The position numbers and the translations under genes are program-made. The notes beneath the pieces were generated by a model. It was given only the letters and a program-made list of their open reading frames with translations, did no database searches and was not told where the DNA came from. This document shows, one piece after another, positions 20,914 through 23,447 of a stretch of 64,000 nt of DNA; within the stretch, counting starts at the first letter, position 1, and each line of letters starts with the position of its first letter. Source of the DNA: Mesorhizobium sp. 131-2-1 (lineage in GTDB: Bacteria; Pseudomonadota; Alphaproteobacteria; Rhizobiales; Rhizobiaceae); contig NZ_AP023247.1 in the NCBI RefSeq assembly GCF_016756535.1, forward strand, positions 3,658,501 to 3,722,500, in the 5' to 3' direction.

Positions 20914-21003
20914 TGGCGGAGGGAGTGGGATTCGAACCCACGGTGAACTTGCGCCCACGCCGGTTTTCAAGACCGGTGCCTTAAACCGCTCGGCCATCCC
21001 TCC
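20914..21003 (-). tRNA. tRNA-Ser (anticodon UGA)
   Basis: A 90-base class II tRNA reads leftward. The acceptor stem pairs GGAGGGA with TCCCTCC, and the 3' CCA is encoded. The anticodon stem pairs CCGGT with ACCGG around a loop with TGA. A long variable arm (GCGTGGGCGCAAG region) is followed by the T arm GTGGGTTCGAATCCCAC. It decodes UCA/UCG-type serine codons. It marks the right edge of the small accessory islet; tRNA-Ser genes are frequent integration targets. Confidence 0.95.
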
Positions 21004-21732: not shown

Positions 21733-21813
21733 CAATCAAGCCGGCCTCATTGACAATGCGGCGCAGGGCTGGCCAATCTGTGGCGTGGCCATTTTGCCAC
21801 GGGGTAGGGAACC

Positions 21814-21900
21814 ATGAGAAAGACATACGAAAAGCCGGTTCTGATCAGGCGTCAGAAGCTGTCGGTTGTGACGGCACAGGTTGTCACGTCGACGGACTGA
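21814..21900 (+). CDS. 28-residue putative RiPP precursor, lasso-leader-like
   Basis: ATG 21814 to TGA 21900 encodes 28 residues, with GGGTAGGGA just upstream as a usable ribosome-binding site. The peptide carries Y5, P8, L10, L16 and T20 at exactly the spacing of the lasso-peptide leader pattern Y-x-x-P-x-L-(5x)-F-(3x)-T that binds the recognition element; the usual F is L and the usual G at 14 is Q. After T20 only eight residues remain, ending in D28, too few for a normal threaded lasso. Similar short peptides are, from memory, annotated in rhizobia as putative RiPP precursors. No cyclase, protease or recognition-element gene is in the window. Confidence 0.6.
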   Translation: MRKTYEKPVLIRRQKLSVVTAQVVTSTD

Positions 21901-22202: not shown

Positions 22203-23447
22203 ATGCAGACTTCGGCGCGCCCGCGTCTTCGTCGCGCTCCTGCTCTTGCACTGTGCGCCCTGTCGGCGGTGTTGCTTGCCGCCTGCACGTCGACGCCGCA
22301 ACCGAAGGCGATGATCGACAAGAGGCCGCGCTCCAAGGAGTATTTCGCCGAAACCGAATATGGCGTGAAGGCCAGCCCGCGCGTTGCCTTCATGCGGCGC
22401 GGCGGCGGCCGCGACCAGCTCGGCAAGCCCTACCAGGTGCGCGGCAAGTGGTACTATCCCAAGGAAGACAAGCGCTACGCCAAGGTCGGTCTGGCGTCCT
22501 GGTATGGCGATGCCTTCCACGGCCGGCTGACCGCCAATGGCGAAGTCTACGACATGACGCATCTGACGGCGGCGCATCCGACGATGCCGCTGCCGAGCTA
22601 CGCCCGCGTCACCAATCTCGATACCGGCAGCTCGGTCATCGTGCGCGTCAACGATCGCGGCCCGTACCATGAGGGCCGCATCATCGACGTGTCGGAGCGC
22701 GCCGCGCAAATGCTCGACTATGCCAAGGTCGGCACCGCCAAGGTGAAGGTCGAATACGTCGGCCGGGCGCCACTCGACGGCGATGACGACCAGTATCTGA
22801 TGGCCTCCTACCATCCCGGCAACAGGCGGCCGGATCCGTCGGACGGCTTGCCGACCGGCGTGATGGTGGCCATGAACGGCCCGATGCCGAGCCTGTCGGT
22901 CGGCGCGCCTGCCGCCGCCGTGCCGTTCCCGGGTCAATTGACCAATTCCGGGGATGCCCCTGCCGCCCAGCCGGCCTTGTCGGATCAGCCGGCGATGTCG
23001 GCGCAGGGCGTCAGCGATGTCGTGTTGCCCGATTTCGGGCCGATCGTGCCGGAGCGGCCGGAGATCAATCTGCCGCCGAATTCGCCCTTCGCCATGGCCT
23101 CGCTCTCCTACGCGGACGAGCGCGTCGGACGCGCCGACGTCTTCGCCGCCTTCGACGGCGCCGGGATGTCGCCGTCGGACATCCTGCAGTCCTGGAAGAA
23201 ATCCAATTCGACGTCGCCGGCCGTCGCCGACTATGTCGCCGCCGGCTCTTTCGATGATGCCGCCGAGGCGAAGCGGGTGGCGGCGGCGCTCAAGGCTTTC
23301 GGCAGGACCGAAATCCAGCGCACCGAGCTCGATGGCGACGACTGGTACGCGGTCAACGTCTATCCGGACGGCCATGGCAGCGTCGATGATCTGCTGAAAG
23401 CCGCCTGGTCGCACGGCGCGCCGGACGCGCTTGTCGTGCGTGACTGA
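22203..23447 (+). CDS. rlpA: RlpA-like lipoprotein (septal lytic transglycosylase type)
   Basis: The 414-residue lipoprotein has a signal with lipobox L-L-A-A-C (C28). A double-psi beta-barrel domain (about 95-190) carries G-L-A-S-W-Y-G, the catalytic-type aspartate in V-N-D-R-G-P-Y and I-I-D-V-S. A long linker leads to a C-terminal SPOR domain (about 335-410) that binds denuded septal glycan. In Pseudomonas the family cleaves naked glycan strands; in rhizobia the activity is inferred. It is followed by the DacC-like gene, a usual pairing for wall remodelling. Confidence 0.9.
   Translation: MQTSARPRLRRAPALALCALSAVLLAACTSTPQPKAMIDKRPRSKEYFAETEYGVKASPRVAFMRRGGGRDQLGKPYQVRGKWYYPKEDKRYAKVGLASWYGDAFHGRLTANGEVYDMTHLTAAHPTMPLPSYARVTNLDTGSSVIVRVNDRGPYHEGRIIDVSERAAQMLDYAKVGTAKVKVEYVGRAPLDGDDDQYLMASYHPGNRRPDPSDGLPTGVMVAMNGPMPSLSVGAPAAAVPFPGQLTNSGDAPAAQPALSDQPAMSAQGVSDVVLPDFGPIVPERPEINLPPNSPFAMASLSYADERVGRADVFAAFDGAGMSPSDILQSWKKSNSTSPAVADYVAAGSFDDAAEAKRVAAALKAFGRTEIQRTELDGDDWYAVNVYPDGHGSVDDLLKAAWSHGAPDALVVRD

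Follow-up and report, generated by a model that had tools for sequence, protein, structure and literature searches.

The window analysed here, 64,000 nucleotides of the Mesorhizobium sp. 131-2-1 genome, carries a 28-codon gene that is probably a working precursor of a lasso-derived RiPP system without a cyclase. As no ring would be closed, the product would be a short linear peptide phosphorylated at Ser26. A wider proposal, which we favour only slightly, is that a dispersed library of such mini-precursors, 3-29 per Mesorhizobium genome with cores of about 7-20 residues, is processed in trans by one enzyme set and gives rise to varied linear Ser/Thr-phosphopeptides, perhaps with further decoration, and that these represent an undescribed kind of RiPP in Rhizobiales.

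The precursor gene, 28 codons and a TGA stop, is found at positions 21814-21900 of the plus strand and reads MRKTYEKPVLIRRQKLSVVTAQVVTSTD*. The frame and the residues named in the original prediction (Y5, P8, L10, L16 and T20, with eight residues past T20 and D28 as the final one) agree exactly with the translation. The window holds a single frame of no more than 45 residues that fits Y-x-x-P-x-L-x(5)-[LF]-x(3)-T, and 200 dinucleotide-preserving shuffles gave none. If the peptide is cut after A21, a site adopted from lasso precursors, the leader would comprise M1-A21 (21814-21876, +), with the RRE-binding YxxPxL motif, L16, and T20 at position -2, and the core would be QVVTSTD (21877-21897, +). 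Ser26, whose codon is at 21889-21891 (+), would then be core residue 5, the conserved hydroxyl residue and proposed phosphorylation site, and D28 (21895-21897, +), earlier put forward as a candidate ring residue, would be core residue 7.

A purine stretch resembling a Shine-Dalgarno sequence, GGGGTAGGGAA, is located directly 5' of the frame (21801-21811, +), and TTGACA, which resembles a promoter -35 element, is found 64 nt 5' of the ATG (21750-21755, +). A sigma-70 scan of the locus gave no sites, and no -10 hexamer was identified beside the TTGACA. About 0.8 kb without any recognised gene precede the frame, in line with the roughly 800 gene-free bases reported earlier. The neighbours are a tRNA-Ser(TGA) on the minus strand (20914-21003) and an ORF read as an RlpA-like lipoprotein (22203-23447, +), which was used as a downstream synteny anchor. 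None of the NCBIfam models, including those for lasso leaders, assigns the window peptide to a family, unlike the lasso precursor of the same genome, which passes NF033521 and NF033528. The Pfam family DUF5972 (PF19397) was considered and rejected; it matches residues 2-12 of the leader only locally and weakly, with 15.1 bits against a cut-off of 22.6, and it is named by no paper found in the open-access literature. The 28-residue peptide is very probably encoded by a real but easily missed gene, and the frame is, judging from its sequence, likely to be translated.

The anchor DNA downstream of the peptide is matched in all ten chosen relatives, and a family peptide precedes it in six of them (G001, G078, G133, G050, G016, and G129), while no family peptide was found by pattern at the anchor of the other four (G002, G003, G138, and G144). 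Another four anchor-locus copies (G035, G115, G006, and G033) come from the 29 loci that match the window peptide most closely; having been drawn by similarity, these form a biased set. All 11 locus copies, the window included, have an upstream TTGACA and a serine at core position 5. An acid is found at core position 7 in seven of the 11, as D in the window and G001 and as E in G050, G033, G006, G035, and G115, and is missing in G078, G133, G129, and G016. It occurs in two of the six copies from the relatives chosen beforehand and in all four of the added copies. In the five copies with E7 another 2-4 residues follow the glutamate, so the acid is terminal only in the window and in G001. This placement of D/E two residues past the conserved serine (21889-21897 in the window) sets the locus copies apart from the family at large.

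The syntenic ortholog of G001 is identical to the window peptide in 26 of 28 residues, and the two ORFs differ by five silent and two replacement changes. Conservation is weaker just downstream, and just upstream it equals that of the ORF. When seven locus copies were aligned, the mean pairwise identity was 0.77 for the leader, 0.68 for the upstream DNA, 0.55 for the core, and 0.37 downstream. Their leader codons display 105 silent and 112 replacement differences, which taken alone indicates moderate constraint only. A relative in G111 (L057) likewise ends in VVVSTD, and the anchor DNA is unmatched at that locus. The tRNA-Ser beside the G001 peptide (L035, about 1841-1900) diverges midway from the sequence in the window, as might be the case if a mobile element had inserted there.

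The peptide was originally described as an orphan. This holds locally, but it is one of about 11 copies in its own genome and has relatives in the hundreds. The window peptide matches ten places in the genome (E<=10), and an alignment of 31 members matches 11 (E<=0.01); four of these members are in tandem, two lie beside the biosynthetic locus at C1:232-237 kb, and five are single. The starts of the tandem quartet (C1:4459765-4460376; L031:7766-8378) are 166-178 nt apart and its cores differ, which suggests duplication and core diversification. Conservation in related genomes, suggested earlier as a check, is indeed seen: the alignment finds members in 102 of 146 Mesorhizobium genomes and up to 29 per genome (E<=0.01). 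In a family sample of 297 genomes from 109 genera, capped in size, where the thresholds were chosen by us, members were found in 13 genomes of eight other genera (E<=1e-4). Three members are found on Mesorhizobium plasmids: NZ_CP045499.1:135342-135419 (-), NZ_CP080532.1:4853-4915 (-), and NZ_CP080533.1:339106-339183 (+). Two of these (H1 and H3) have no annotated feature, and the remaining one is in frame within a longer hypothetical CDS that starts upstream. A 43-residue paralog used as query retrieved 12 proteins, of which three are named, two as hypothetical and one with an unrelated-looking name. No description of the precursor family in Mesorhizobium was found in the open-access literature, to which the search was confined.

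A leader-only model gave 191 matches in 12 Mesorhizobium genomes, and the best 150 were all tallied as relatives. As the model covers the leader only, their selection is independent of the core. Another member is found within 1 kb for 71 and within 5 kb for 76 of these best 150 of 191, so about half of the members are solitary. The columns of Y5, P8, L16, and A21 are invariant in the 31 aligned leaders, whose consensus is MKKTYEKPxLxKRxKLSxVTA, and position -2 (residue 20) of the best 150 of 191 is Thr in 116, Val in 23, Ala in 10, and Ser in one. Lasso leaders combine YxxPxL with Thr, or Ile/Val, at -2, and both the T20 of the window and the family leaders bear out the lasso type of RRE-binding leader proposed originally. 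The start codon in the best 150 of 191 is ATG in 131 and GTG in 16, with none recognised in three, and a Shine-Dalgarno-like motif precedes 139 of the 147 with a start codon, compared to 46 of 149 control stretches. The element TTGAC[ATG] is located 50-69 nt upstream in 96 of the best 150 of 191, and anywhere in the 165 nt before the gene in 111 of them, against 12 of 50 control stretches further upstream. Between nearest neighbours among 129 relatives, the leaders show 567 silent and 381 replacement differences, with an excess at third positions.

When it comes to the C-terminus, the conservation of which had been raised as a question, the terminal acid is not family-wide. As judged from the tallied cores, the family-wide feature is a serine, usually five residues past the leader. 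Serine is found at core position 5 in 108 of the best 150 of 191 relatives, and at core positions 4-6 in 140 of them; the corresponding values after permuting the residues within each core (2000 rounds) were a mean of 23.3 with a maximum of 40, and a mean of 63.5 with a maximum of 84. Ten of the best 150 of 191 have no serine at positions 4-6, while all 11 members in the genome of the window have one. By comparison, D or E at core positions 7-9 (15 of the best 150 of 191) is not enriched over the shuffle mean of 12.9, and 109 of these cores contain no acid at all. Among 29 pattern-found peptides from other genera, Ser or Thr is present at core positions 4-6 in all 29, as Ser in 14, and nine have an acid at positions 7-9. 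Threonine replaces the serine in all ten peptides of one of these genera (two genomes) and in five of ten at another locus. At the window's locus, the acid two residues past the serine could be part of a kinase site (S-x-D/E) or of a ring; since the acid is present in G033 and G050, which have no recognised cyclase, the latter is less likely.

The original prediction stated that the window holds no maturation genes. This is right for B2, for which two genome-wide searches returned nothing within the window, but such genes are found elsewhere in the genome, about 3.4 Mb away at C1 about 232-237 kb. That locus encodes B1 (PqqD), B2 (Transglut_core3, C1:235.7 kb), a kinase-like protein (K), an NTP_transf_5 protein (N), and a formyltransferase. 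The PqqD, Transglut_core3, and NTP_transf_5 domains all score above their cut-offs, as does the match to the lasso B2 model; a second B2 above cut-off is encoded at C1:262 kb. Of the lasso genes B1, B2, and C that were to be looked for genome-wide, the first two are present at this distant locus, and no match to the lasso cyclase was found in the 19 kb around it. Processing in trans, as foreseen originally, is required and plausible.

B1, B2, K, and N are found together in the genome of the window and in all 12 congeneric neighbourhoods fetched, whereas a full formyltransferase match is found in the former and in four of the 12. The lasso cyclase, an Asn-synthetase-like enzyme that belongs to any lasso locus, was used as tblastn query in the version of the same genome. 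At E<=1e-5 it gave no match in the own 19 kb stretch or in any of the 12 congeneric neighbourhoods, which span 14-19 kb, and at E<=1e-4 none in the eight loci from other genera, which span 10-18.5 kb. Six of the eight stretches fetched from other genera contain B1-B2-K-N (L230-L233, L236, and L237). Five of these six also hold pattern-found precursors, and in the sixth (L237, genome G418) a peptide some 2.4 kb away from B2 was detected by profile search; L234 and L235 have peptides, and the four genes were not found there. The transporter ORF of the lasso locus has only remote matches (about 24-35% identity), kilobases off and in some of the stretches. An AMP-binding enzyme is encoded at L230:9758-11736, L233:11525-12991, and L236:3549-5572, and a GNAT acetyltransferase is found as well in L230 and L236; both are possible further tailoring steps.

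The signature H...GK[T/S]...DD is kept in 19 of 19 K proteins; alignment A4 contains 11 of the 19 cluster kinases. The predicted structure of K (mean pLDDT 90.8) matches PEPCK and HprK/P (1jb1). PEP carboxykinases head the list of fold matches, with HprK/P ranking 41st, and HprK/P is absent among the best 50 rows listed when the model is compared using VIA-align. K does not reach the cut-offs set for HprK-related models, and is here termed HprK-like because of the signature and the predicted fold. A sequence search of the PDB returned remote lasso RREs for B1 (TfuB1 and TbiB1) and nothing for B2 or K.

Among the 146 congeneric genomes, 97 have both the cluster B2 and the peptides, none has this B2 alone, five have peptides alone, and 44 have neither. 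All 97 B2-positive genomes carry at least three peptides, while the five B2-negative ones (G014, G019, G020, G119, and G134) have one or two matches each. In the 297-genome family sample, which includes five matching Mesorhizobium genomes, the corresponding numbers are 18, 2, 0, and 277, so that two of 20 genomes with this B2 are devoid of peptides at E<=1e-4. The Fisher p-values are tiny but treat the genomes as independent, ignoring shared ancestry. The B2 of the lasso locus is found in 104 of the 146 congeners (weakly in G040, and in two pieces in G017). Five genomes with only the cluster B2 (G016, G033, G050, G122, and G126) have 6, 6, 8, 6, and 16 peptides, respectively, the G122 assembly being 79% complete, whereas 12 genomes with only the lasso-locus B2 have 0-2. 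The peptides track the cluster B2 and not the lasso-locus B2. None of the five cluster-B2-only genomes has a lasso cyclase (NF033535) above cut-off; they have weaker Asn-synthetase-like matches, the best with 236 bits against a cut-off of 525. The maturation B2 has only two of the best 150 of 191 Mesorhizobium precursors, and two of the 11 in the genome of the window, within a distance of 5 kb; the pairing of peptides and enzymes in this genus therefore rests on co-occurrence. Of the 13 genomes from other genera that have peptides, eight encode one no more than 5 kb from the cluster B2.

The genome also contains an ordinary lasso locus (C1 about 261.3-267.1 kb; L030:7286-13128), with a precursor, a B1-like ORF, B2 (C1:262 kb), and a cyclase that exceeds the cut-off of NF033535. 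An HprK-like protein that does not reach its cut-offs and a putative ABC transporter ORF are found there as well. Its precursor is MEQNVEKQEYETPSLTVHGSIETITQ/GGSGTTALD..., where the slash marks the presumed cut and the D is core residue 9. The lasso locus is situated within an apparent exopolysaccharide gene region.

Based on these observations a pathway can be proposed. Each genome with the system would have one B1-B2-K-N locus and several mini-precursor genes; in Mesorhizobium there would be three to 29, nearly all far from the locus, single or in small groups, and many of them would have their own promoter-like element. The RRE of B1 would bind the YxxPxL leader and present the peptide, after which the HprK/PEPCK-fold kinase K would phosphorylate the conserved core serine, Ser26 in the window. 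The cysteine leader peptidase B2 would cut after T20-A21, and N, in some genomes together with the formyltransferase, may decorate the phosphoserine. The product would be QVVT-pS-TD or a derivative. Phosphorylation, cleavage site, and decoration, like export and a role in the cell, are what we infer. A cyclase-less offshoot of phosphorylated lasso biosynthesis is the simplest account.

Some of the same data can be read in other ways. B1 and B2 might bind the peptide while the serine is nucleotidylated, glycosylated, acylated, or formylated, with K having some other activity. The NTP_transf_5 protein, the formyltransferase in this genome and in four of 12 congeners, and the AMP-binding and GNAT enzymes in three and two of the other-genus loci fit with such a fate, which we still consider rather unlikely, given that K retains the signature reported for lasso precursor kinases. 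The N enzyme of pseudomycoidin is moreover reported to act on phosphorylated serine (PMC9266682), so such steps may follow phosphorylation. The original prediction had suggested a tail-less ring on D28, in which a cyclase, for example that of the lasso locus (about 262-264 kb), would join Q22 to D28 in a seven-residue macrolactam. D28 is core residue 7 if the cut is after A21, seven of 11 locus copies have an acid there, and the genome does encode a lasso cyclase above cut-off. A lasso, however, has D/E at core positions 7-9 and a tail, and D28 is terminal with no tail; four of 11 locus copies have no acid at position 7, and acids at core positions 7-9 in the best 150 of 191 relatives equal the shuffles. 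No lasso cyclase above cut-off is found in G033 and G050, although both carry E7. The five genomes devoid of both lasso-locus B2 and such a cyclase still hold 6-16 precursors, and the lasso locus is provided with a precursor of its own, in which D is core residue 9. The acid is thus a feature of this locus that is not enriched in the family, and the ring is improbable.

A leader-only decoy was also suggested earlier. The short core (seven residues here) and its variability would fit with such a decoy, or with a regulator, that has no functional core and acts by titrating B1. This is very improbable, as a serine is kept at core position 5 in all 11 locus copies and in 108 of the best 150 of 191 relatives, and at positions 4-6 in 140 of them, and a co-occurring peptidase and kinase locus would be left unexplained. 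That the frame is a chance ORF or a decaying, functionless relic can hardly be credited: it is true that the plasmid homologs H1 and H3 have no annotated feature, that four of ten relatives have no family peptide at the locus, and that the upstream DNA is as conserved as the ORF between the window and G001, but the pattern is absent from all 200 shuffles, silent changes outnumber replacements five to two in that comparison with conservation weaker just downstream, and the relatives share the third-position excess, the promoter-like element, and the Shine-Dalgarno motif.

A cyclase-less phosphopeptide pathway can be compared to several known systems. Linear polyphosphorylated peptides (LPPs; Popov et al., 2026) are described as restricted to Bacillota (PMC13381572). 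Like the present system they have a discrete RRE, an HprK-like kinase, a nucleotidyltransferase, a YxxP leader, and no cyclase; a core serine is phosphorylated where here one is conserved, and a lasso locus is often found in the same genome (PMC13381572). Their peptidase is SpI-like (SipW-type) (PMC13381572), while this slot is here taken by a lasso-type B2. An MsbA-like transporter is a further trait of LPP loci; here, the remote matches to the lasso-locus transporter ORF are kilobases off and occur in some of the stretches. One to three LPP precursors of 35-200 residues are encoded inside the locus (PMC13381572), while the present ones are mostly 28-45 residues long, number 3-29 per Mesorhizobium genome, and are nearly all encoded off-locus. 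The LPP motif YxxPxVLxHQxIxFETxxS is not found in the family consensus, and the LPP phosphoserine is core residue 3 (PMC13381572), whereas the conserved serine here is mostly residue 5. As precursor motif, size, number, and placement differ, and the peptidase and phosphosite appear to do so, the system is best placed outside the LPPs.

Paeninodin, pseudomycoidin (PMC9266682), and Bsf (PMC10368454) likewise have a precursor, B1, B2, and a kinase with the kinase signature, and a nucleotidyltransferase is shared by pseudomycoidin, Bsf, and the present locus. The phosphorylated lasso peptides have Thr at leader position -2, or Ile in Bsf (PMC10368454), and differ in having a cyclase and a ring-closing core acid, neither of which features in the present family. 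BsfK phosphorylates core Ser3, and also the S3T variant, with assistance from its B1 (PMC10368454), while LppK did not accept Thr (PMC13381572). The proven phosphosites of related systems are core Ser3 or a C-terminal serine, and not core residue 5. We would class the system as a probable variant among linear phosphopeptide RiPPs with lasso-type RREs, and not with the lasso peptides or LPPs. In the RRE-Finder study the discrete lasso RRE model detected almost 8,000 proteins, only about 4,000 of which are accompanied by leader peptidase and cyclase, and some of the remaining ones are treated as possible false positives (PMC7470986); loci such as B1-B2-K-N would presumably fall in the non-co-occurring group. 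Prochlorosins also have many precursors per promiscuous enzyme, as proposed here, but they have Nif11-family leaders and ProcM-type lanthipeptide chemistry (PMC10783134), and no sequence relation is claimed.

If the proposal is true, lasso-type leader recognition and peptidase would have been reused in Alphaproteobacteria without a cyclase, and many scattered mini-genes would be served by one small locus. Genome mining restricted to the surroundings of the enzymes would miss nine of the 11 precursors in this genome. One B1/B2/K locus with dozens of natural cores and one conserved serine would make a clean test system, and it would bear on the purpose of phosphorylated peptides, which the LPP paper leaves open (PMC13381572). 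Mesorhizobium and its relatives would, if this is correct, possess a combinatorial repertoire of phosphopeptides, resembling the prochlorosins in logic.
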